Assembly (NCBI RefSeq): GCF_004337365.2
Contig: NZ_CP044016.1
Coordinates: forward strand, 1,054,001-1,118,000
Source of the DNA: Rhizosphaericola mali
GTDB taxonomy: Bacteria; Bacteroidota; Bacteroidia; Chitinophagales; Chitinophagaceae
Direction of reading: 5' to 3'
DNA: 64,000 nucleotides
Below, piece after piece: positions 15 to 10,912 of this stretch. Under the pieces are notes generated by a model. The model ran no database searches, had not been told where the DNA came from, and saw only the letters and a program-made list of their open reading frames with translations. Every line of letters starts with the position of its first letter. Positions within the stretch are counted from its first letter, which is position 1. Made by a program: the position numbers and the translations under genes.

Positions 15-662
15 ATGAATGATAATGATATTTATAAAATTATATCAGAAGAATTACTGAAGCAAAATTTTGAATTTACAAGATATTTTCTCGATAGATT
101 TACTCTAATCTATGAAAATGAGAAAATTAAAATTGAGCGAATAGATAGAGATGATGGCGAAAATATTTTTGTTTATGTACCAATCAAGAATGAGCCATTT
201 TATCTAAGATTTTGTTTAAATAAAAAACAACAAGATATTCATGATGTAGATACTGAGCCCGGTGTAAAGTTGTTTTTATGGCAAACTTCAGAGTTGCTGT
301 CTTTAAAAGAATTAGTATCTATAGATGAATTAAATCCAATAAAAACATGGAATTTGGGAGATAAACATCCTCGCTTTTCAGACTTATTAATGGATAACAG
401 TGGTATCAAATATGAACCTAATTCTGAACCAGATTCGTTAGAAGATAAAATTTCATTATTGTTGAATAATATTGAGAAATCACGGAATGTTGGTTTGTTT
501 TTTGAAAATGAAATAAGTTTTAATATACAATGTTTTATAGATTATTATTATGAGAACCAGCTATTAGGCAATTTCATATTGAGCAGAGGCATAGTAAAAA
601 AAATGATGCAATTTAATATTGAAATTGAATTTAATATTGCTGCATGGGGTAAATCTTTCTAA
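15..662 (+). CDS. Hypothetical protein, 215 aa
   Basis: I do not recognise this protein. It begins with ATG and ends at TAA, so it looks complete, although only 14 bases lie upstream and its operon context is cut off. It has no signal peptide or membrane segment, so it is probably cytoplasmic. It is rich in acidic and aromatic residues, with a short Trp-containing segment around residue 90 and a second half that looks helical. The size, acidity and lack of motifs would fit an immunity-type or other accessory protein, but nothing visible proves that. The next gene is trpE, more than 200 bases away behind its own leader, so there is no sign of a link with the trp operon. Confidence 0.6.
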   Translation: MNDNDIYKIISEELLKQNFEFTRYFLDRFTLIYENEKIKIERIDRDDGENIFVYVPIKNEPFYLRFCLNKKQQDIHDVDTEPGVKLFLWQTSELLSLKELVSIDELNPIKTWNLGDKHPRFSDLLMDNSGIKYEPNSEPDSLEDKISLLLNNIEKSRNVGLFFENEISFNIQCFIDYYYENQLLGNFILSRGIVKKMMQFNIEIEFNIAAWGKSF

Positions 663-668
663 TTATTT

Positions 669-700
669 TTTGTTCAATTCAAAATTCTTTCGCATATTCG
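669..700 (+). promoter_or_regulatory. Possible promoter of the trp operon
   Basis: A TTTG (669-672) and a TATTCG (695-700, an imperfect TAnnTTTG -7 element) lie 22 bases apart. This roughly fits the Bacteroidota -33/-7 promoter layout. Transcription from here would start near 708, about 20 bases before the leader peptide start at 729. The -7 match is weak and the assignment is tentative. Confidence 0.25.
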
Positions 701-728
701 CACAGCAATGAAGTTAAATAATGTAAAT

Positions 729-770
729 ATGATTTGGTGGTGGCATACAAACTCTTTTCGGGGCTTGTAG
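729..770 (+). CDS. trpL: trp leader peptide with three consecutive Trp codons
   Basis: A 13-codon reading frame, MIWWWHTNSFRGL, starts with ATG at 729 and stops with TAG at 768-770. Codons 3-5 (735-743) are three consecutive TGG Trp codons. The frame lies just upstream of the trpE terminator hairpin at 812-838. Trp is normally one of the rarest residues, so a run of three in a tiny frame directly before trpE is hard to explain by chance. The established model for such peptides is that a ribosome stalled on Trp codons in low charged tRNA-Trp chooses the fold of the downstream RNA. The expression of this peptide is inferred. Confidence 0.8.
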   Translation: MIWWWHTNSFRGL

Positions 771-838
771 CAGCATGCTATAATCAGTATTTATTTAAAA
801 ATAAACAAAATGCCTCGAATATAATTCGGGGCTTTTTT
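757..838 (+). promoter_or_regulatory. trp attenuator: mutually exclusive antiterminator and terminator
   Basis: The 8-base sequence TTCGGGGC occurs twice, at 757-764 inside the leader peptide frame and at 825-832 as the 3' arm of the terminator. Both copies can pair with GCCTCGAA at 812-819, with one G-T wobble, so only one pairing can exist at a time. The first copy begins 14 bases past the last Trp codon. A ribosome stalled on Trp codons would leave it free and allow the antiterminator. A ribosome reaching the stop at 768-770 would cover it and let the terminator form. A small hairpin (768-772 with 776-780) overlaps the stop codon. The pairings are visible in the sequence. The regulatory outcome is inferred from classical trp attenuation. 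Confidence 0.78.
812..838 (+). terminator. Intrinsic terminator of the trp leader
   Basis: A 9-bp stem (812-820 with 824-832) has a 3-base loop and one wobble pair, followed at once by six T residues (833-838). It sits between the Trp-rich leader peptide and the trpE start at 876, so it is an attenuator terminator and not the end of the preceding gene's transcript, though it could do both. Confidence 0.8.
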
Positions 839-875
839 ATTGCAATTAACTATTTTAAAATATTCAAATAAACCC

Positions 876-2288
876 ATGACAAGGATTGAAACAAACTGTA
901 CAAAAATGCTTTTTGATGTACAGACTCCGGTGGCTATTTATTTACGATTGAGAGATCAATTTCGCGACACCGTTTTATTGGAAGGTGCGGATTATCAATC
1001 TGCTGAGGACGCATTTTCACTTATTGGGATCAATGCGATCGGAGGTGTGGAAGTGACGGATGACGATACAATTGAGTTGAAATATCCGTTGAAAAAAACA
1101 CAGAAAATCAAAATTTCAGATGCGCAAAAAGTTACGGATATTCTTTGGAATTATATGAAAGGTTACGAGGTGACGACTTCCGAAGATGATTTTGTACGTC
1201 GTGCACAGGGTTTATTTGGATATGCGACTTATAATGCCGTTCATTTTTTTGATACCATTCAACTAAAATCTTATAACAAAGAACCTGAAAGAGAGATTCC
1301 ATTGATGCGCTATCGTTTGTATCAATATGTATTGGTAATCAATCATTTCAAGTCTGAAATGTATTTATGTGAAAACGTAATTAGCAGATTGGAAAGTAAT
1401 TTGGAGAAAGTACAAGCTTTGGTAGAAGGTCGCGATATTCCACAATATAAATTTCGTTTAAATGGTGGAGAAATTCCCAATGTAACGGATGCAGATTATA
1501 TCGAAATGGTAAAAAAAGGCATTCAGAGTTGCAAGCGTGGTGATGTATTTCAGATCGTTCCAAGCCGTAGATATGCACAGAAATTTGAAGGAGATGATTT
1601 TAATGTTTACCGCACTTTGCGTAGCGTCAATCCTTCTCCATATATGTTTTATTTTGACTACGGAAATTACAAATTATTCGGTTCGAGTCCAGAATCTCAA
1701 TTACTTATTCAAGATCAAACAGCCATTGTTCATCCGATTGCTGGAACTTATAAAAGAACGGGCAATTTGTTGGAAGACAAGAAATTAGGCGAATTATTAC
1801 AAAATGATCCCAAAGAAAAAGCCGAACATACGATGTTGGTTGATTTGGCTAGAAATGATTTGAGTAGAAACTGTACAGATGTAAAAGTCAATTATTTCAA
1901 AGAAGTGCATCATTTTTCTCATGTTTTGCATTTGGTGAGTGAGGTTGCGGGTTCTTTGGAAAAAGATACGAATCCATTCAAAGTTTTGGCAAATAATTTT
2001 CCTGCTGGAACCTTGAGTGGCGCTCCTAAATTCAAAGCGATGCAATTAATCGATGAAATTGAAGGGAATTCCAGAAGTTATTATGCCGGCACGATTGGAT
2101 TTGTGGGTTTCAATGGTAATTTCAAACACGCGATTATGATTCGCTCTATTTTGAGTAAATCCAATACATTGTATTATCAAGCGGGCGCTGGCGTTGTGGC
2201 AAAATCGATTCCCGAAAATGAATTGCAAGAGGTAAATAACAAATTAGGCGCATTGAAATTAGCGATTCAAAAAGCGGAGCAAGTTTAA
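876..2288 (+). CDS. trpE: Anthranilate synthase component I
   Basis: TrpE with TrpG converts chorismate and glutamine to anthranilate, the first committed step of tryptophan synthesis. The 470-residue protein has the N-terminal LLEGADY segment (34-40), related to the LLES tryptophan feedback site. It also has the chorismate-binding signatures GDVFQIVPSRR, FGSSPES, HPIAGTYKRTG, DLARNDL and FPAGTLSGAPK. I chose the ATG at 876. An in-frame TTG at 840 adds 12 residues, but it lies within two bases of the leader terminator's T tract, and family N-termini match the ATG. It is the first gene of the operon, under the leader attenuator. It should be inhibited by tryptophan, given the retained LLE motif. 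Confidence 0.96.
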   Translation: MTRIETNCTKMLFDVQTPVAIYLRLRDQFRDTVLLEGADYQSAEDAFSLIGINAIGGVEVTDDDTIELKYPLKKTQKIKISDAQKVTDILWNYMKGYEVTTSEDDFVRRAQGLFGYATYNAVHFFDTIQLKSYNKEPEREIPLMRYRLYQYVLVINHFKSEMYLCENVISRLESNLEKVQALVEGRDIPQYKFRLNGGEIPNVTDADYIEMVKKGIQSCKRGDVFQIVPSRRYAQKFEGDDFNVYRTLRSVNPSPYMFYFDYGNYKLFGSSPESQLLIQDQTAIVHPIAGTYKRTGNLLEDKKLGELLQNDPKEKAEHTMLVDLARNDLSRNCTDVKVNYFKEVHHFSHVLHLVSEVAGSLEKDTNPFKVLANNFPAGTLSGAPKFKAMQLIDEIEGNSRSYYAGTIGFVGFNGNFKHAIMIRSILSKSNTLYYQAGAGVVAKSIPENELQEVNNKLGALKLAIQKAEQV

Positions 2289-2294
2289 TTAATG

Positions 2295-2305
2295 ATAATT
2301 TATAA
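2295..2305 (+). repeat. 11-bp direct repeat, left copy, flanking the four-helix-bundle gene
   Basis: ATAATTTATAA occurs here and again at 2679-2689, just outside each end of the 2316-2675 gene. The repeat is A+T-only, so chance matching is possible, but its placement on both borders is notable. Confidence 0.5.
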
Positions 2306-2315
2306 ATGATGAATT

Positions 2316-2675
2316 ATGAATGCGAAAGAAAATCTTCTAAAGGAGAAAAGTTTTCAATTTGCCATTAGAATAGTCAAATTGTATCAGCATTTGAATACAT
2401 CATTTCATGAATTTATCTTAAGCAAACAATTGTTACGAAGTGGTACTGCTGTTGGTGCTTTAATTAGAGAAGCACAGAATGCAGAAAGTAAAGCAGATTT
2501 TATACATAAATTAGGAATTGCTCAGAAGGAATGTGATGAAACGCTTTATTGGTTGGAACTTTTAAAAGAAATTGCGTTTCTTACAGAAAAGGAATTTGAA
2601 AGTATTGCTATAAATGCAACAGAATTGTTGAAAATGTCACGAAGTGCAATTATTACGACAAAAAATAACTCATAA
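2316..2675 (+). CDS. Four helix bundle protein (23S rRNA IVS-encoded protein family)
   Basis: This 119-residue protein matches the small four-helix-bundle family first noted in 23S rRNA intervening sequences (TIGR02436-type). The recognisable parts are FAIRIVKLYQHL near the N-terminus, QLLRSGTAVGALIREAQNAES in the middle, and the Cys-Asp-Glu-Thr-containing helix with YWLELLKEI. The biochemical role of the family is unknown. Bacteroidota genomes often carry many copies, commonly as free-standing inserts between unrelated genes. Here it splits trpE from trpG, which are normally adjacent, and is flanked by an 11-bp direct repeat. It probably rides on the trp transcript. I see no reason to think it takes part in tryptophan synthesis. 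Confidence 0.85.
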   Translation: MNAKENLLKEKSFQFAIRIVKLYQHLNTSFHEFILSKQLLRSGTAVGALIREAQNAESKADFIHKLGIAQKECDETLYWLELLKEIAFLTEKEFESIAINATELLKMSRSAIITTKNNS

Positions 2676-2678
2676 CTT

Positions 2679-2689
2679 ATAATTTATAA
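2679..2689 (+). repeat. 11-bp direct repeat, right copy, flanking the four-helix-bundle gene
   Basis: This is the second copy of ATAATTTATAA (the first is at 2295-2305). It lies between the four-helix-bundle stop codon and the trpG start. Confidence 0.5.
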
Positions 2690-2695
2690 TTCGAT

Positions 2696-3265
2696 ATGAA
2701 AATATTGGTTTTTGATAATTACGATTCATTTACCTACAATTTGGTACAATTAATCGAGCGAATTATTGGGGAAAAAGTAGATGTTTTTCGCAATGATAAA
2801 ATCAGTTTGGATGAGGTAGAGAAATATGACAAAATCGTATTGTCTCCTGGTCCTGGCATTCCAGAAGAAGCGGGTTTACTTTTGCCTTTGATCAAAAGAT
2901 TTGCACCTACAAAATCAATTTTGGGTGTCTGTTTGGGCGAACAAGCAATTGGTGAAGCTTTTGGGGCGAAATTGACTAATTTATCCGAAGTATTTCACGG
3001 TATTGCAACCGATATCCAGAAAACAGAAGTAAAAGCGCCATTATTTGAAGGTTTACCAGATACATTTGAGGTGGGACGATATCATAGTTGGGTCGTAGAT
3101 AACGAAAATTTTCCTGAAAGTTTGGAAGTGACAACAAGAGATGCAGAAGGATTTATTATGGGATTGCAACATAAAACCTATGATGTTCAAGGTGTACAAT
3201 TTCATCCGGAAAGTATCTTGACGCCAGTTGGAGAAAAAATACTTAGAAATTGGCTTGATAAGTAA
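2696..3265 (+). CDS. trpG: Anthranilate synthase component II (glutamine amidotransferase)
   Basis: TrpG releases ammonia from glutamine for TrpE. The 189-residue class I amidotransferase has the oxyanion-strand motif SPGPG (50-54), the nucleophile Cys79 in GVCLGEQAIGE, and the His170/Glu172 pair in VQFHPES. The common His after CLG is Glu here (CLGEQ). A single trpG-type protein may also serve p-aminobenzoate synthesis, since no separate pabA is seen in this window. It is placed between trpE (plus the inserted four-helix-bundle gene) and trpD, all on the same strand, which supports the Trp rather than Pab assignment. Confidence 0.94.
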   Translation: MKILVFDNYDSFTYNLVQLIERIIGEKVDVFRNDKISLDEVEKYDKIVLSPGPGIPEEAGLLLPLIKRFAPTKSILGVCLGEQAIGEAFGAKLTNLSEVFHGIATDIQKTEVKAPLFEGLPDTFEVGRYHSWVVDNENFPESLEVTTRDAEGFIMGLQHKTYDVQGVQFHPESILTPVGEKILRNWLDK

Positions 3266-3321
3266 TTAATAGTTAATAGTTAATAGTTAATAGTTAATAG
3301 TTAATAATTAATAGTGAATAG
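3266..3321 (+). repeat. Tandem heptamer repeat TTAATAG, eight units
   Basis: Eight head-to-tail 7-bp units begin directly after the trpG stop codon. Units 1-5 and 7 are exact, unit 6 reads TTAATAA and unit 8 TGAATAG. It occupies most of the trpG-trpD gap. Such simple repeats can change length by slippage. Because 7 is not a multiple of 3 and the array is noncoding, length changes would only alter gene spacing and mRNA structure. Confidence 0.9.
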
Positions 3322-3354
3322 TTACAACTTAACACGCACATTTTACTTTTTACA

Positions 3355-4347
3355 ATGAAACAATTATTACAGTCTTTATTCAAATATAAAACTCTCTCTC
3401 GCGAAGAAGCAAAAGCTATTTTAATCGAAATTTCTCAAGGGAAATATTCGGATTTTGAGATTAGCTCTTTCATAACGGTATTTGCGATGCGCTCCATTAC
3501 GATTGCGGAGTTGCAAGGTTTTGTCGATGCATTATTGGAATTATCTGTTCCAGTTGATCTGGGTACACATGAGGTTTTGGATATTGTCGGAACGGGTGGA
3601 GATGGGAAAAATACCTTCAATATTTCCACTTTGGCGTGTTTTATTGTTGCCGGTGCAGGACAAAAAGTGGTTAAACAAGGAAATTATGGAGCTTCTTCTG
3701 TGAGTGGTTCGTCTAATGTCATTGAAAATATGGGATACAAATTCAAAAATGACAGCGAATTATTAAAAAAGGAATTAGCAGAAGCGAATATTTGTTTTTT
3801 ACATGCGCCCTTATTTCATCCTGCGTTGAAAGCTGTAGGAGCGATACGTAAGAGCTTAGGATTTCGTACATTTTTCAATTTGTTGGGTCCTTTGGTCAAT
3901 CCTGCTCGTCCAAAATTTCAATTGTTAGGCGTATATAATTTGGAAGCGGAGCGTTTGTATAATTACTTTTTACAAGAAAGTGGACGTCAATTTGCAGTTG
4001 TGCATAGTTTGGATGGTTATGATGAAGTTTCTCTTACAGGAGATTCAAAGGTAATTACCAATGCTGGAGAACGCATATTTACACCAGAAGCTTTGGGTAA
4101 AAGACAAGTTTTTCCTGAGGATATTTATGGCGGTGATACACCAGAAGCGGCTGCCGAAATTTTCAAAACGATTATTTCGGGTAAAGGATCTTGGTCGCAA
4201 AATGCGGTGGTTTTGGCAAATGCTGCTCTTGGTTTGCATTGCACGGGAAAATATGCAACGTATGAAGATGCGTATCAAGCTGCTGTTGTAAGTTTGGAAA
4301 GTGGCAAAGCTTTGAATGCATTAAATACTTTAATTGCATTACAATAA
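3355..4347 (+). CDS. trpD: Anthranilate phosphoribosyltransferase
   Basis: TrpD joins anthranilate to phosphoribosyl pyrophosphate to give phosphoribosyl-anthranilate. The 330-residue protein is full length for the family. It carries the PRPP-loop GTGGDG (79-84), NIST (89-92), the KQGN...SSVSGSS stretch (107-120) and the family signature FRTFFNLLGPLVNPA. The ATG at 3355 is used, and the start region LLQSLFKYKTLSREEA is typical. It is a free-standing transferase and not a TrpG-TrpD fusion. It follows the heptamer repeat and is followed 4 bases later by an acetyltransferase gene. Confidence 0.96.
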   Translation: MKQLLQSLFKYKTLSREEAKAILIEISQGKYSDFEISSFITVFAMRSITIAELQGFVDALLELSVPVDLGTHEVLDIVGTGGDGKNTFNISTLACFIVAGAGQKVVKQGNYGASSVSGSSNVIENMGYKFKNDSELLKKELAEANICFLHAPLFHPALKAVGAIRKSLGFRTFFNLLGPLVNPARPKFQLLGVYNLEAERLYNYFLQESGRQFAVVHSLDGYDEVSLTGDSKVITNAGERIFTPEALGKRQVFPEDIYGGDTPEAAAEIFKTIISGKGSWSQNAVVLANAALGLHCTGKYATYEDAYQAAVVSLESGKALNALNTLIALQ

Positions 4348-4351
4348 TTGC

Positions 4352-4777
4352 ATGGAAAATATTCGTTTGCAAGATGCTGCAGAGGAGGATTTCGAGCTTT
4401 TATATCAAATAAAAACAAGATCGATCCTGCCCTATGTAGACCAAATTTGGGGCTGGGAGGAAGCCGTACAAAAAGAGTTTCTACGAAATGAAACGCCAAT
4501 TTCGGAAGTTCAATTGATATTTTTCGAAGAAAAAGCTGTCGGTTTTGTACAATTGAAAATAAAAGAAAACGAAGTTTTTATTGGAAGTTTGTTTATTATG
4601 GACGATTTTCAAGGTTTGGGAATTGGTTCGTATATATTGGATAAATTAATCGCAGAATATTTCATTGTTAGATTGGAAGTCTTGAAGATCAATCACAGAG
4701 CGACAAAATTGTATCAGTCAAAAGGATTGAAAATTGTCGGAGAAAATGAATTGAAATATTTTATGCAAATAAATTGA
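4352..4777 (+). CDS. GNAT family N-acetyltransferase
   Basis: This 141-residue protein has the GNAT fold pattern: an N-terminal IRLQDAAEEDFELLYQI segment, a central strand pair (GFVQLKIKENEVFIGSLFIM), and the acetyl-CoA loop with FQGLGIGSYIL, a variant of Q/RxxGxG/A. The C-terminal RLEVLKINHRATKLYQSKGLK segment fits motif B. The ATG at 4352 is chosen over an in-frame TTG at 4334 because the latter overlaps trpD. The gene sits tightly between trpD (4-base gap) and trpC (2-base gap), so it is co-transcribed. The substrate is unknown. Nothing in the sequence ties it to a tryptophan intermediate. Confidence 0.88.
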   Translation: MENIRLQDAAEEDFELLYQIKTRSILPYVDQIWGWEEAVQKEFLRNETPISEVQLIFFEEKAVGFVQLKIKENEVFIGSLFIMDDFQGLGIGSYILDKLIAEYFIVRLEVLKINHRATKLYQSKGLKIVGENELKYFMQIN

Positions 4778-4779
4778 AT

Positions 4780-5577
4780 ATGAATATTTTAGATAAGATA
4801 GTTGCAGAAAAAGTTCAAGAGGTTGCATTACATAAAGCAGCAAAGTCGATCGATGATTTGACTAAAATGGAATTATTTGAAAGAAAAACATTTTCTCTAA
4901 AAGAGGCTATTTTGAATGGTGATAATTCCAAAATTATTGCAGAATACAAACGTCAATCTCCATCTAAAGGAATAATTAATGGAAGCGCAAAAGTCGAAGA
5001 GGTAACAAAAGCATATACTGAAAATGGTGCGGCTTGTTTGTCCGTTTTGACTGATTATCCATTTTTTGGTGGTACGATGGAAGATTTGGGCAAAGCCCGA
5101 TTTAATCAAATTCCTATTTTGCGAAAGGATTTTATGGTCGATTCATATCAAGTGTACGAAGCAAAAGCAATTGGCGCAGATGTGATTTTACTAATTGCAG
5201 CTTGTTTGACTCCACAAAAAGTAAAAGAATTGACCAATGTGGCACATGATTTAGGTTTAGAGGTTTTGTTGGAATTGTATACGGAAGATGAGTTGGATTG
5301 TTATTACGACGAAGTTGATTTGGTTGGTGTAAATAATAGAAATCTGAAAACATTTGAAGTAAATATTGAGAATTCTATTCGTCTTTTGAATAAATTACCG
5401 AAAGAAAAACCTGGAATTGCAGAAAGCGGTATTGATAATCCGCAAGTTGTAATGGAATTAAAAAATGCAGGTTTTAAAGGATTTTTGATGGGAGAGCATT
5501 TTATGAAAACCAACAATCCTGGACAGGCATTTGTTAATTATGTAAATGAATTAAAAAGCTTGGAAAATGCGCATTAA
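4780..5577 (+). CDS. trpC: Indole-3-glycerol phosphate synthase
   Basis: TrpC closes the indole ring, turning CdRP into indole-3-glycerol phosphate. The 265-residue TIM barrel has the catalytic Glu55/Lys57 in AEYKRQSPSKG, the second Lys in RKDFMVDSYQ, the VGVNNRNL strand and the IAESGI phosphate site. The ATG at 4780 is used. A TTG six bases upstream is also in frame but overlaps the previous stop. It is monofunctional: TrpF is encoded by the next gene, which overlaps it by 11 bases. Confidence 0.96.
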   Translation: MNILDKIVAEKVQEVALHKAAKSIDDLTKMELFERKTFSLKEAILNGDNSKIIAEYKRQSPSKGIINGSAKVEEVTKAYTENGAACLSVLTDYPFFGGTMEDLGKARFNQIPILRKDFMVDSYQVYEAKAIGADVILLIAACLTPQKVKELTNVAHDLGLEVLLELYTEDELDCYYDEVDLVGVNNRNLKTFEVNIENSIRLLNKLPKEKPGIAESGIDNPQVVMELKNAGFKGFLMGEHFMKTNNPGQAFVNYVNELKSLENAH

Positions 5578-6205
5578 GGTTTGTGGTTTGACGGATGTGA
5601 ATCAAGTAGCTCAATTGGATGAAATGGGAATGCAATTTGGTGGTTTTATATTTTATCCGAGATCGCCGAGGTATGTTTTCAATTCACTTTCAGCACAACA
5701 AATCAAAAAAATAAAAGGTAAAATAAATAAAGTTGGAGTATTTGTTAATGCACCACAAGAGGAAGTACTCAAAACGATCGATGATTGTGGTTTGTATGTG
5801 GCGCAATTGCATGGAGACGAAACACCTAAATATTGCGAACGAATTTCGGAATACATTACAGTCGTAAAAGCATTTCAAGTAAGTTCGCCAGAAGAAATTG
5901 AATGGCGAATACATGAATATCAAGATGTCGCTGATATGTTTTTGTTCGATACTCCAGGATTGGGATATGGAGGCACTGGAAAGAAATTTGATTGGAAAGG
6001 CTTAAAAAATTTAAATATAGGAAAACCATTTTTTCTTAGTGGAGGTATCGGTCCGGAAGATCATGAGCAAGTGAAAGAATTTATGGAATTTCCAATAGCA
6101 AAAGATTTATTTTCGTTAGATATTAATAGTCGTTTCGAAGTTGAACCAGGCGTAAAAGATTTGGAAAAAATTAAAACATTTGCTAACCATTTAAATTCTA
6201 AATAA
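5567..6205 (+). CDS. trpF: Phosphoribosylanthranilate isomerase
   Basis: TrpF catalyses the Amadori rearrangement of phosphoribosylanthranilate to CdRP. The 212-residue protein has the general base Cys6 in KVCGLT, the G-F-I-F-Y-P-R-S-PR strand, QLHGDE, the FLFDTPG segment carrying the general acid Asp, and FFLSGGIGPEDH. Its ATG lies inside the 3' end of trpC (11-base overlap), which suggests translational coupling. The next frame starts on the base after its stop codon. Confidence 0.95.
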   Translation: MRIKVCGLTDVNQVAQLDEMGMQFGGFIFYPRSPRYVFNSLSAQQIKKIKGKINKVGVFVNAPQEEVLKTIDDCGLYVAQLHGDETPKYCERISEYITVVKAFQVSSPEEIEWRIHEYQDVADMFLFDTPGLGYGGTGKKFDWKGLKNLNIGKPFFLSGGIGPEDHEQVKEFMEFPIAKDLFSLDINSRFEVEPGVKDLEKIKTFANHLNSK

Positions 6206-7195
6206 TTGAATACCAAACTACTTGCTTTGCTTATTTTCAGTTTTATATTAAACAGTCTTTTAGCCCAACGTCGTGTTGAGTCTATAAAAGATGATAAAAC
6301 TGCAATTAAATTTATTAAAAATTATTTTTATGATGATTATAATTACGATTGGAACAAATTTCATTTAATAAAAGGAGATGAGTGGACTGGGCTTTTTAAT
6401 ATTAGTAAGCATTTAGAAGATTCTTTAATTGCAAATCAAAAATATCTAGGTTGGGTAAAATTAGATATGAATGAGGACAAAAAAGAGGATTTAATTGTTA
6501 GCGGATATTTTTCTGATAAAGATATTCCTGAACCGGAATTTGGTTTATTTGTATTTCTATCCAGAAAAGATGGATATTATGATGTGCATGATTTGAAGTT
6601 CTCCGATCAGAAAACATATCCCTTATACATATCAGAAACAATTTTTATGGATAATAAAATTCCGATGATTAGGCTTATAGATTGGGCTCCTGATGCTATG
6701 AAATTGAACAATTTACCATTTGCTGTTGATACAGTCTTTCATTTTGATAAATATTTTATTAATTACAATTCTCACCCATTGGCGAATTGGGTTCAATCCG
6801 TGCAGATGGATATTAAAAATCAAGAAGGGATTCATACTAAGTTGTCTATTACTGACATGGATTCAGTTTCTATTGGAAAGATTAATTTAGAATATTTAAG
6901 GGGTAATAAATGGAATAAGATTATAGGAAAATTATATCCAGATATATACATAGGATTAGATCAATTGATTAATTATGGATTGACTACTTCCGATTTTGCT
7001 ATTAATGTAACAGGAAATTATATGGATGAAAATTATTTGTCAATTAAATTTTTAAACGGAAAAGCAGTCTCATTAAGTAACTTTACGACCCGGAATAGAT
7101 ATACATTTGATGCAATTTGTTCTTGGTTGATAGAATTAAATGGCTATGTACATTATCTACATGAGCAAAAAGAGAATAATAAAAATAAAAACTAA
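6206..7195 (+). CDS. Secreted protein of unknown function, paralog 1
   Basis: This 329-residue protein has a clear signal peptide (KLLALLIFSFILNSLLA, cleavage near residue 20), so it is probably periplasmic or surface-bound. I do not recognise the family. It is a paralog of the following gene. Shared features are a YF-D-D-WK/N-F-H segment near residues 40-53, the acidic loop DMNEDKKED (87-95) followed by LIVSG, and FVFLS. The loop looks like a DxNxDxKxD calcium loop of FG-GAP/VCBS-like proteins. The start must be TTG: it directly follows the trpF TAA in the same frame, and no ATG/GTG precedes the signal peptide. It lies in the middle of the trp operon, with no obvious metabolic reason. Confidence 0.82.
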   Translation: MNTKLLALLIFSFILNSLLAQRRVESIKDDKTAIKFIKNYFYDDYNYDWNKFHLIKGDEWTGLFNISKHLEDSLIANQKYLGWVKLDMNEDKKEDLIVSGYFSDKDIPEPEFGLFVFLSRKDGYYDVHDLKFSDQKTYPLYISETIFMDNKIPMIRLIDWAPDAMKLNNLPFAVDTVFHFDKYFINYNSHPLANWVQSVQMDIKNQEGIHTKLSITDMDSVSIGKINLEYLRGNKWNKIIGKLYPDIYIGLDQLINYGLTTSDFAINVTGNYMDENYLSIKFLNGKAVSLSNFTTRNRYTFDAICSWLIELNGYVHYLHEQKENNKNKN

Positions 7196-7200
7196 GTCGT

Positions 7201-8232
7201 ATGCGTAAGCTTTTAGTGATCATTTTCAGCTTTGCTAGTTCTATTGTTTTTGCACAAAAGCAAGTAGAAAAATTAGAAACAGATGAAGATGTTTTAAAAT
7301 TTGTAAAAGATTATTTCAAGGATGATAATGAACATAATTGGAAAGATTTTCATTTTGCCAATGGTACAGAATGGAAAAATGTTTACAACCTAAGTAAAAC
7401 AGTTTCTGATTCTATTCAAGCAAATATGCATTTTAGTAAATGGTTTACAGAAGATGTGAATCAAGATGGAAAATTAGATTTGATTGTAACTGGAGATATT
7501 TCTGATCCAAATGCCCCAGAATCAAACTTTACCTTATTGGTGTTCGTTTCTCAGAAGAATAGGTCTTACAATGTATACAATATGGAACATTCCGAAGAGG
7601 CAAACTTTCCCTTATATGCCAATGCAATTTTAATTGGGAAAAAAAGTATTCCTGGTTTACGTATTGTTAATTGGTCTCCAAATATCAATAGACCAAGTAA
7701 TGCTGAATATCCTTATTTTGTAGATTCTGTAGCTTTTTCCAATAATTATTTTCTGAATTATAATACGCATCCAGATGCATTGAGGATAAAGTCGATTACT
7801 TATACACAAGCAGGCTCTATTGGAAATTTATCCAAGTTAGTATTGTTAAATATGGATGAAAATAGACAAGCAACTTGGCGATGGACGAGTTATAATGGTA
7901 AAGATTCCTCTACGTTAAAAGGTCGAGTTACTGTGGATGTATATAGTAAGTTATTGGCGCTAATTAATTACACCAATTTTAGCCAATTACCGTCTCAATT
8001 ACTTTCCCAAAATAATGATGCTAGTGCAAATACAATATATTTTACAGTGGAGTATTCTAATGGCACGATTAAAAGATTAACGGATCGTAGTGGATTTACT
8101 TCTTACTCATTATCTGCGGTATATGGTTGGTGCGATGGATTAGTGGAAGATATTCAACAACAATTACAAGCACGACAAAATAATTACAACCAAATGAGTA
8201 GCTGGGGGATGGATGATGGTTGGGGATTTTAA
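7201..8232 (+). CDS. Secreted protein of unknown function, paralog 2
   Basis: This 343-residue protein has a signal peptide (KLLVIIFSFASSIVFA, cleavage near residue 18). It aligns along its length with the preceding protein. Matching segments include F-V-K-D-Y-F-K-D-D near 34-42, W-K-D-F-H at 47-51, the DVNQDGKLD loop (85-93) followed by LIVTG, VNWSPN, and the FLNYNTHPDALR region. The loop is a better calcium-type DxNxDGxxD motif than that of paralog 1. The C-terminus ends in a Gln/Asn/Trp-rich tail. It starts 5 bases after paralog 1 and ends before the trpB start, so it should be on the trp transcript. Its function is unknown. The pair arose by duplication. Confidence 0.85.
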   Translation: MRKLLVIIFSFASSIVFAQKQVEKLETDEDVLKFVKDYFKDDNEHNWKDFHFANGTEWKNVYNLSKTVSDSIQANMHFSKWFTEDVNQDGKLDLIVTGDISDPNAPESNFTLLVFVSQKNRSYNVYNMEHSEEANFPLYANAILIGKKSIPGLRIVNWSPNINRPSNAEYPYFVDSVAFSNNYFLNYNTHPDALRIKSITYTQAGSIGNLSKLVLLNMDENRQATWRWTSYNGKDSSTLKGRVTVDVYSKLLALINYTNFSQLPSQLLSQNNDASANTIYFTVEYSNGTIKRLTDRSGFTSYSLSAVYGWCDGLVEDIQQQLQARQNNYNQMSSWGMDDGWGF

Positions 8233-8260
8233 AAATTTTACAAGAACGAACAATTTATAT

Positions 8261-9457
8261 ATGGACATGAAGGAAATAGAAGTTGATCAAAACGGATATT
8301 ATGGAGAGTTTGGTGGTGCATTTGTACCAGAGATGTTGTATCCCAATGTAGAGGAATTGAAGGAAAATTATTTGAAAATAATTTCAGACGAAGGTTTTAA
8401 AAAGGAATTTGATAATTTATTAAAAGATTATGTTGGACGACCAACACCATTATATCACGCAAAAAGATTGAGCGAACAAATTGGTGCAAATATTTTTTTG
8501 AAAAGAGAGGATTTGAACCATACCGGTGCGCATAAAATCAACAACGCAATAGGTCAAGCTTTATTGGCAGAACGTCTAGGGAAAAAGAAAATCGTTGCAG
8601 AAACGGGCGCTGGACAGCATGGTGTTGCAACAGCGACGGTGTGCGCTCTGCGGAATTTGGAATGTATTGTTTTCATGGGTGCGTTGGATATTCAACGACA
8701 AGCCCCCAATGTCGCTCGTATGAAAATGCTTGGAGCGACAGTTGTGGCTGCCGAAAGTGGAAATAAAACTTTGAAAGATGCTACAAATGAAGCAATACGT
8801 TATTGGATTAATCATGCGCACGATACGCATTACATCATAGGAAGTGCAGTAGGTCCGCATCCTTATCCTGATATGGTGGCTCGTTTTCAAAGCGTAATTA
8901 GCGAAGAGGTTAGATGGCAGTTAAAAGAAAAAACAGGAAAAGAAACTCCTGATTATGCAGTGGCATGTGTTGGTGGTGGTAGTAATGCTGCAGGTACTTT
9001 TTATCATTTTTTGAATGAGGAAAATGTTCATTTAGTTGCAGTTGAGGCTGCTGGTTACGGAGTTGATTCTGGAGAGTCTGCAGCTACGACACAATTGGGA
9101 ACCGTTGGGGTATTGCATGGAAGTAAAAGTTTAGTTATGCAAACAAAAGATGGTCAGATTATTGAACCTTATAGCTTATCCGCGGGGTTGGATTATCCTG
9201 GAATTGGACCATTGCAAGCGCATTTATTCAAATCTGGACGTGGTACATTTTTAAATGCTACGGATGATGAGGCATTAGCAGCAGCATTTAATTTGACTAA
9301 AATTGAAGGAATTATTCCCGCTTTAGAATCTTCACATGCTTTAGCTGGTTTGAAAAAATTAAAATTAAAGCCTTCTGATAATGTGGTTGTTTGTTTGAGT
9401 GGAAGAGGAGATAAGGATATGGATAACTATTTAAAAGTTTTTGATAAATTTAATTAG
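8261..9457 (+). CDS. trpB: Tryptophan synthase beta subunit
   Basis: TrpB condenses indole with serine, using PLP, to make tryptophan. The 398-residue protein has the GEFGGAFVPEMLYP N-terminus, the PLP lysine Lys92 in HTGAHKINNA, the GAGQHGVATAT loop, and the glycine-rich phosphate cradle CVGGGSNAAG. I chose ATG 8261 (ATG 8267 is equally possible). A longer frame beginning at 8213 would overlap the upstream gene and add residues unlike the family. It is a TrpB1-type subunit, expected to pair with TrpA encoded 70 bases downstream. Confidence 0.96.
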   Translation: MDMKEIEVDQNGYYGEFGGAFVPEMLYPNVEELKENYLKIISDEGFKKEFDNLLKDYVGRPTPLYHAKRLSEQIGANIFLKREDLNHTGAHKINNAIGQALLAERLGKKKIVAETGAGQHGVATATVCALRNLECIVFMGALDIQRQAPNVARMKMLGATVVAAESGNKTLKDATNEAIRYWINHAHDTHYIIGSAVGPHPYPDMVARFQSVISEEVRWQLKEKTGKETPDYAVACVGGGSNAAGTFYHFLNEENVHLVAVEAAGYGVDSGESAATTQLGTVGVLHGSKSLVMQTKDGQIIEPYSLSAGLDYPGIGPLQAHLFKSGRGTFLNATDDEALAAAFNLTKIEGIIPALESSHALAGLKKLKLKPSDNVVVCLSGRGDKDMDNYLKVFDKFN

Positions 9458-9527
9458 TTGATTTTGAATCAATAATTTAAAAAATTATCCCTATTTTCCG
9501 TTTTTGGAATTTTTTAATTAGAATGTG

Positions 9528-10298
9528 ATGAGTAGAATTAAAGATACATTCAGTAATAATACTGATAGAAAAATATTAAACGTTTATTGTACAGCTGGAT
9601 ATCCTCAATTAAATAGCACCTTGGAAGTAATGGAAGCATTGCAAAAAGATGGTGCGGATATTATTGAATTGGGCATTCCTTATAGTGACCCATTGGCAGA
9701 TGGTGAAGTGATACAAAATAGTGGTGCTATTGCATTGGAAAATGGGATGACCATTGAAGTTTTATTTCAACAATTGGAAAATTTTAGAGATAAAATTCAT
9801 ATTCCAGTTATTTTAATGGGTTATTTGAATCCTGTATTACAATATGGATTTGAAGAATTTTGTAAAAAAGCATCCGAATTAGGTATTGATGGTTTGATTT
9901 TACCTGATTTACCTGAATATGAATTTGAAGCGAATTATCGCCAAATTGTGAAAAAATATCAGTTAGATTTCATTTTTTTGGTTACTCCTGAAACTTCCAT
10001 TGCAAGAATCAGACAATTAGATGAGTTGAGTACAGGATTTTTGTATGCTGTTTCTTCTTCATCGACTACTGGTTCGGATAAAAATTTTACGGATGTTGAG
10101 AAATATTTAGGCAAATTAGAAACCTTAGGATTGAAAAATCCAATCATGGTAGGATTTGGCATAAAAGATAAAGCAACATTTGAATCCGCCACCAAACATG
10201 CAGCAGGCGCCATCATCGGTACGGCTTATATCAAAGCATTAACCGCATCTGATGATATTGAAGAAGGCACGCACGCATTTTTGGAAACGATTAAATAA
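9528..10298 (+). CDS. trpA: Tryptophan synthase alpha subunit
   Basis: TrpA cleaves indole-3-glycerol phosphate to indole, which is channelled to TrpB. The 256-residue TIM barrel shows the catalytic Glu47 in IIELGIPYSDP, Asp58 in PLADGE, and the phosphate-binding GFGIKD and G-A-I-I-G-T-A segments. ATG 9528 is preferred over an in-frame GTG three bases earlier. The 70-base A+T-rich gap before it holds no convincing terminator. It is the last tryptophan gene of the operon and is followed 11 bases later by hisH. Confidence 0.96.
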   Translation: MSRIKDTFSNNTDRKILNVYCTAGYPQLNSTLEVMEALQKDGADIIELGIPYSDPLADGEVIQNSGAIALENGMTIEVLFQQLENFRDKIHIPVILMGYLNPVLQYGFEEFCKKASELGIDGLILPDLPEYEFEANYRQIVKKYQLDFIFLVTPETSIARIRQLDELSTGFLYAVSSSSTTGSDKNFTDVEKYLGKLETLGLKNPIMVGFGIKDKATFESATKHAAGAIIGTAYIKALTASDDIEEGTHAFLETIK

Positions 10299-10309
10299 GA
10301 ATTATTACA

Positions 10310-10912
10310 ATGAGCAGCAATATTGCTATCGTAAAATATAATGCAGGAAATATTCGATCTGTGTTATTTGCATTAGAACGAATAGGTGTTGAGGCGGAAG
10401 TTACAGACGATGCCAAAAAGCTTGAAAATGCGGATAAAGTGATTTTTCCTGGAGTGGGAGAGGCATCAACGGCGATGAATTATCTAAAAGAAAAGAATTT
10501 AGATATACTTATTAAAAACTTGAAACAACCCGTTTTAGGTATTTGTTTGGGTATGCAATTGATGTGTGCACATAGTGAGGAAAATGATACACCTTGTTTG
10601 GGCATTTTCGAAGAAAAAGTCAAAAAATTTGAACCGTTGGCTAGTTCTTCAGAAAAAGTTCCTTTGATTGGTTGGAATCAAATTCACAATTTAAAAACGC
10701 CGCTTTTTGAAGAGGTTAAGGATGATTCAGATTGTTACTTTGTGCATAGTTATTATGCAGCTTTGGGAGAATTCACAATTGCACAGACGGATTACGTGCA
10801 AAACTATAGCTCTGCATTGCACAGAGATAATTTTTATGGAACGCAATTTCACCCTGAAAAGAGTGCAAAAGTAGGCGAACAAATTTTGAAGAACTTTATT
10901 TTTAAAATTTAA
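10310..10912 (+). CDS. hisH: Imidazole glycerol phosphate synthase, glutaminase subunit
   Basis: HisH hydrolyses glutamine and feeds ammonia to HisF in histidine synthesis. The 200-residue class I amidotransferase has NAGNIRSV at the N-terminus, PGVGEA (47-52), the nucleophile Cys79 in GICLGMQL, the HisH-typical GWNQI, and His181/Glu183 in FHPEKS. These features separate it from TrpG/PabA. No other his gene lies in the window. Its position 11 bases after trpA suggests transcription with the trp genes, linking the two pathways that both consume PRPP. HisF must be encoded elsewhere. Confidence 0.92.
   Translation: MSSNIAIVKYNAGNIRSVLFALERIGVEAEVTDDAKKLENADKVIFPGVGEASTAMNYLKEKNLDILIKNLKQPVLGICLGMQLMCAHSEENDTPCLGIFEEKVKKFEPLASSSEKVPLIGWNQIHNLKTPLFEEVKDDSDCYFVHSYYAALGEFTIAQTDYVQNYSSALHRDNFYGTQFHPEKSAKVGEQILKNFIFKI

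Follow-up and report, generated by a model that had tools for sequence, protein, structure and literature searches.

A probable ribosome-mediated tryptophan attenuator ahead of trpE in Rhizosphaericola mali and its Chitinophagaceae relatives

The trp operon and its leader region

We analysed a stretch of 64,000 nucleotides from the genome of Rhizosphaericola mali (contig NZ_CP044016.1, positions 1,054,001 to 1,118,000; hereafter the window), in which a trp operon with unrelated genes inserted follows a short leader region (Table 1). A gene for a four-helix-bundle protein of the 23S rRNA intervening-sequence protein family (PF05635) lies between trpE and trpG (2316-2675), a GNAT acetyltransferase gene between trpD and trpC (4334-4777), and genes for two similar proteins of unassigned function, with a weak CarG-like match below cut-off, between trpF and trpB (6206-8232). 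The trpA-like frame is followed by a hisH-like glutamine amidotransferase frame (10310-10912), named from its sequence only.

Table 1. Features of the trp leader region and of the operon behind it, in window coordinates.
Feature	Coordinates	Strand	Details
Predicted Bacteroidota sigma-A promoter	669..700	+	TTTG 669-672, 20-base spacer, CATATTCG 693-700; consensus TAnnTTTG
Leader peptide gene	708..770	+	MKLNNVNMIWWWHTNSFRGL; 20 codons + TAG (768-770); start, Trp run and in-frame stop kept in 87 relatives
Three Trp codons, TGG-TGG-TGG (putative sensing site)	735..743	+	3 in 75/86 relatives, 2 in 10, 4 in 1
Segment 1	744..755	+	CATACAAACTCT; can pair with segment 2 (anti-antiterminator); clearer in relatives than in the window
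Segment 2, putative antiterminator strand in the last leader codons	757..766	+	TTCGGGGCTT; 10-base copy of terminator 3' arm region
Small hairpin spanning the stop codon and beyond	768..783	+	TAGCAGCATGCTA here, TGGCATTGCCA in many relatives; from a fold of 751-822 and aligned relatives
Segment 3, terminator 5' arm	812..820	+	GCCTCGAAT; partner is segment 2 or segment 4, from folds and pair counts
Segment 4, terminator 3' arm and U-run	824..838	+	ATTCGGGGC + TTTTTT; terminator helix pairing
trpE, putatively regulated gene	876..2288	+	TIGR00564, E 2.4e-116
Remaining trp operon: trpG, trpD, trpC, trpF, trpB, trpA-like frame	2696..10298	+	unrelated genes inserted
trpA-like frame	9525-10298	+	recognised from sequence only

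An earlier note on this DNA had described a frame with TGG-TGG-TGG, followed by a terminator, ahead of trpE, and these elements lie exactly where it placed them (ATG 729, Trp codons 735-743). Its count of 13 codons from ATG 729 has to be revised, as the open frame starts seven codons earlier, at ATG 708, and the peptide has 20 residues. At the position of the earlier-noted start, two codons 5' of the Trp run, an ATG is present in only 5 of the 87 relatives. Judged across these relatives, ATG 729 is internal and unconserved, and the conserved start is an ATG 7-11 codons 5' of the Trp run. The 8-mer TTCGGGGC occurs at 757-764 and again at 825-832, and both copies can pair with GCCTCGAA at 812-819, coordinates that again proved exact. 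The shared strand is in fact 10 bases long, TTCGGGGCTT; only 0.1% of random 24-mers from the window share at least 9 bases with the arm. The terminator is the sole terminator-like site detected on the + strand within 600-10500.

Where a relative has a promoter-type box, the distance from it to the leader start is 4-9 bases in 76 of 83 cases, and 7 bases in 49. In the Flavobacterium psychrophilum transcriptome, TAnnTTTG is found at -12 to -5 (PMC9723704), and if this spacing applies to the window the transcript would start near 705, about 3 bases 5' of the start codon. The predicted promoter ends 7 bases before the start codon, and the leader message therefore probably has almost no 5' UTR. This would be unusual, since short or absent 5' UTRs are rare in both species for which we have counts: only about 3.7% of 5' UTRs in Bacteroides thetaiotaomicron are shorter than 10 bases (PMC7366714), and 5.5% of F. 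psychrophilum messages are leaderless (PMC9723704). Bacteroidota are also without classical Shine-Dalgarno sequences (PMC7366714). A sigma-70 promoter scan was set aside as uninformative in this phylum.

Conservation of the leader across Chitinophagaceae

We then compared the upstream regions of 90 Chitinophagaceae trpE genes, later additions to the sample being mainly one per genus. In 88 of these 90 regions a leader lies ahead of trpE, with a short frame carrying 2-4 consecutive Trp codons. Of the two exceptions, L153 retains one Trp codon in a short stretch resembling a leader, together with a terminator, and L164 has neither such a stretch nor a terminator. A strict start filter, which removed one region that does carry a leader (L030), was passed by 87 leaders, and a terminator was detected by script in 86 of them.

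The first Trp codon is codon 8-12 of the leader, mostly the tenth. An open ATG 7-12 codons upstream is present in frame 0 in 87/87 relatives and in 0 and 0 in the other two frames, a result due in part to selection of the set. In the peptide frame, the first stop lies 21-30 nt past the Trp run in 77/87 relatives; the other two frames give 3 and 5. Some genera have the G-run of segment 2 in a shifted frame (HTNSFRGL, HTNSSGVL, HTTLRGL) and the stop shifts along with it, so that in 63 of 75 relatives the stop codon ends either 7 (51 cases) or 8 bases (12 cases) past the G-run, depending on the frame of the latter. The distance from the last Trp codon to the G-run is exactly 16 bases in 48 of the 75 and 13-17 bases in 73. 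Since the stop moves with the frame of the G-run, the constant features are the RNA strand, its spacing from the Trp codons and its nearness to an in-frame stop, and not the encoded residues.

Across the family, the Trp codons, the frame, the spacing, the antiterminator strand and the terminator are all retained while the sequences co-vary, and this conservation excludes chance as the origin of the arrangement. In particular, the Trp codons and the two 8-mers, on whose conservation in close relatives the earlier note had staked its reading, are kept in nearly all of the trpE upstream regions of the family.

Alternative helices

In 65 aligned leaders, pairing in the terminator helix reaches 96.6%, and double-change cells number 58, compared with 17.4 in shuffles. 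In the same leaders the antiterminator helix between segments 2 and 3 (2:3) is 76.9% paired, compared with at most 59% when the strands are slid, with 31 double-change cells against 18.8; the aligned and permuted sequences are related by kinship, and these and the other conservation and pairing counts are not independent events. Covariation in 2:3 is modest within the family because its GGGG:CCCC core hardly varies, and much of the support for this helix therefore comes from outside the alignment. Leader ends pair with the terminator arm of their own genome at a mean of -14.7 kcal/mol, whereas permuted arms give -13.04 (sd 0.25), with none of 5000 permutations equalling the real value; shuffled leaders pair with the arm far more weakly, at -7.9 kcal/mol. 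In the divergent loci L162, L163, L165 and L166, other sequences follow the same pairing logic.

A further helix, between segments 1 and 2 (1:2), is 87.7% paired in the 65 aligned leaders, versus 32-54% when slid. Segment 1 also shows a synonymous bias: Asn is encoded by AAC in 56 of 59 cases, compared with 28% in trpE genes, and Thr by ACA in 55 of 60, compared with 32%. The design had been described as minimal. It is so in that the peptide-coding RNA doubles as the antiterminator strand, but less so than claimed, because in relatives the antiterminator strand has a further possible partner, the strand at 744-755.

Proposed mechanism and fold models

With a short frame rich in the amino acid of the pathway, and with mutually exclusive antiterminator and terminator helices, the element shows sequence features of the attenuator class, and the family-wide conservation of Trp codons, strands and geometry supports the original proposal of a Trp attenuator before trpE. 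We conclude that the trp operon is very probably controlled by ribosome-mediated transcription attenuation at this element. The aligned sequences themselves display the peptide with its frame and conservation, as well as the alternative helices and their spacing; we infer where transcription starts, that ribosome and polymerase are coupled and that the element responds to tryptophan.

Transcription would start a few bases 5' of ATG 708, with a ribosome trailing the RNA polymerase; transcription-translation coupling is here assumed for Bacteroidota. When charged tRNA-Trp is plentiful, the ribosome would reach the stop codon and cover segment 2, so that the terminator helix between segments 3 and 4 (3:4) would form before trpE. 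When charged tRNA-Trp is scarce, the ribosome would stall on the Trp codons and cover segment 1, leaving segment 2 free. The stalled ribosome would then allow 2:3 to pair before segment 4 is made, and the polymerase would enter trpE.

We computed the outcome with fold models in which the edge of the ribosome is assumed to lie 12 bases downstream of the first nucleotide of the codon in the A site. With this assumed footprint, the proposition that a stall frees the antiterminator strand and a ribosome at the stop covers it holds in 74 of 75 relatives and in the window. With the ribosome at the first or last Trp codon, the probability of 2:3 averages 0.97-0.99 in the 75 relatives and reaches 1.0 in the window. 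A ribosome at the stop codon covers segment 2, and terminator formation then has a probability of 0.95. With no ribosome the relatives are split between 1:2 (42/75) and 2:3 (28/75), and the window is predicted to favour 2:3 (0.80) over 1:2 (0.19), so that read-through would be expected of a message that is not translated, in the absence of other factors. The full-length RNA at equilibrium favours the terminator in all states (0.87-0.95), and control must therefore be kinetic, with the antiterminator winning kinetically, as in E. coli.

Other explanations of the terminator

Systems of the TRAP and T-box kinds also act through a terminator ahead of trpE, and the terminator seen here would then be the output of a TRAP-like tryptophan-binding protein or a T-box-like tRNA-binding leader, with the short frame incidental. 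The window, however, has no T-box or other Rfam match at cut-off; moreover, the Trp codons, start and in-frame stop are kept in 87 relatives, with the frame held even when segment 2 shifts frame, and analogous leaders bear His, Ile/Val or Phe codons before the matching genes. We consider such control very unlikely. A similarly low probability attaches to a TnaC-like device, in which the nascent peptide would sense free tryptophan and arrest the ribosome at the stop, the codons not serving to sense charged tRNA-Trp. A ribosome arrested at the stop would likewise cover segment 2, so that termination would be favoured when tryptophan is high, and the residues after the Trp codons are indeed conserved, reading HTNS.RGL in many genomes. 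The C-terminal residues vary, however, with the frame of segment 2, as in the three variants given above; the strong preference for one synonym past the Trp run (AAC and ACA) points to a constraint on the RNA and not on the peptide, and in this genome the leaders ahead of other operons contain runs of the amino acid that belongs to the operon in question.

Least probable of all, in our estimation, is a constitutive terminator, or one that serves the gene upstream, trpE being transcribed from a promoter elsewhere. The upstream frame 15-662 ends 150 bases before the terminator, which could also end the transcript of this frame; against this, in most relatives a Bacteroidota-type promoter immediately precedes the leader start with nearly constant spacing, and the leader-terminator pair is kept though the sequence further upstream differs among them.

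Relation to known leader families

The earlier note had raised the Rfam family Bacteroid-trp (RF01692; Weinberg et al. 2010, PMC2864571) as a candidate. On this point the evidence is divided: the architecture is held in common, but the Rfam model gives the window 31.8 bits, under the cut-off of 49. RF01692 is nevertheless the top Rfam family by bits in the window, and its alignment sets the start codon at 708 with the Trp codons in register. No Rfam family matched the window at cut-off, and RF01692 searches found no match in 41 genomes (the window and relatives) at E 0.001 or in the leaders of 20 relatives at E up to 1. Below threshold, Phe_leader, MicC, isrD and other families matched, but these hits derive from the terminator and were rejected.

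In RF01692 loci, as in the window, a leader frame that contains Trp codons precedes trp genes (trpE, and trpB in one locus) and is followed by a terminator; the loci share the peptide plan M..NN.WWW.., a nearby promoter box and a complementary strand ending the leader frame. They differ in that their leader strand, CGTCGTGA, extends over the stop and matches the terminator loop and 3' half, whereas in the window the leader strand is a copy of the 3' arm and its partner is the 5' arm. RF01692 loci also have more sequence between promoter box and start, about 15 bases by eye. Three relatives (L135, L155 and L159) have GCTGTG in the leader and ACACAGCGGGC in the terminator, and their leader strand apparently competes with the 5' arm for pairing with the 3' arm, like that of RF01692 loci.

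A covariance model built solely from the window's family (R1) matched 129 of 296 sampled Bacteroidota genomes, many of the weaker matches being bare terminators, while RF01692 matched 29 of the 296, mostly in one family. The better R1 matches are WWW leaders that precede trpE, or trpD in one family, and RF01692 loci are among them (G315:C32, G277:C15 and G431:C1, E ~1e-8). The WWW leaders before trpD and not trpE (L232, L238 and L248) all belong to that family, where the switch seems to have moved with operon rearrangement. Second copies in the genome were sought with R1 and dismissed: there is one real match (E 4.4e-24), and the next, from 1.8e-4, look like terminators without a Trp leader. 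Most likely, the window element and RF01692 are branches of one leader, or at least share the same design in the same place. We read the window element as an unmodelled branch of a phylum-wide leader of which Rfam covers only part.

The E. coli-type trpL (Trp_leader, RF00513) is similar in its Trp codons, its alternative 2:3 and 3:4 helices and a probable 1:2 helix. The window scores 21.6 bits against the RF00513 cut-off of 41, and some relatives come near it (38.5 of 41 bits in L115). Unlike RF00513, the window has its antiterminator strand within the peptide frame, and its 5' UTR is predicted to be near-absent. In this last respect it resembles the leaderless trpL of Sinorhizobium meliloti and Streptomyces, members of other phyla, in which, as generally described, the leader message of a Trp attenuator has hardly any 5' UTR or none.

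Leaders of the same design before his, ilv and phe genes

Further leaders were located via the genes that they precede. In the same genome, MNTNIHIHHHDFSFR lies before hisG, MNKSFINTIISVSQIIIIVVVIIIPLFKGGGII before ilvD and MNLAGNSFGFFYFFYFTQSGSGKYC before the prephenate dehydratase gene. Behind each of them stands a terminator, the 5' arm of which matches a strand in the terminal part of the leader frame. In 15 His leaders, strand and arm pair at -12.2, compared with -7.7 when shuffled; the stop codon often lies within the strand, as GGTAAGCC or GGTAGGCC, and GGTA[AG]GCC is found in many. Peptides with HIHHH and similar runs precede hisG in 15 of 17 genomes searched (L200-L215), about 160 bases before the hisG match in L215 (G000:C1), and the distance from the TTTG box to the ATG of His leaders is as short as 4 bases.

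The ilv and phe cases come from inspection of a few sequences. An Ile/Val-rich leader, IIIIVVVIII, is present in L255 and in L261, 268 bases before the ilvD match in the latter, and the leader end GGAGGTGG pairs with the terminator arm CCGCCTCC (L261; L255). In L275, 164 bases before a prephenate dehydratase match, a Phe/Tyr-rich leader, FGFFYFFYF, contains GGATCGGGT, an exact copy of the terminator 3' arm; similar Phe/Tyr peptides are found in L269, L270, L272, L274, L276 and L277. None of the trp, his, ilv and phe leader loci tried matched Rfam at cut-off.

Discussion

Strong clues to leader-peptide attenuation before amino-acid operons were reported for F. psychrophilum (PMC9723704), and the idea is thus not new for the phylum. 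In the open-access papers searched we found no earlier description of the anatomy and family spread of the leader, and nothing relevant on attenuation in Chitinophaga relatives. Rfam apparently has a gap here: R1 matches 129 of 296 genomes, in part by bare terminators, compared with 29 matched by RF01692, and the leaders checked before his, ilv and phe genes go unrecognised.

We lean towards the view that Bacteroidota carry widespread and largely unmodelled near-leaderless attenuators (Trp, His, Ile/Val and Phe), in which the last leader codons serve as the antiterminator strand. If this is true, ribosomes would load at the extreme 5' end of these messages without Shine-Dalgarno pairing and would trail the polymerase closely enough to decide termination. 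Because ribosome-mediated attenuation needs a ribosome close behind the polymerase, these conserved switches would allow a direct test of coupling and of start-codon recognition in Bacteroidota, where classical Shine-Dalgarno sequences are not used.
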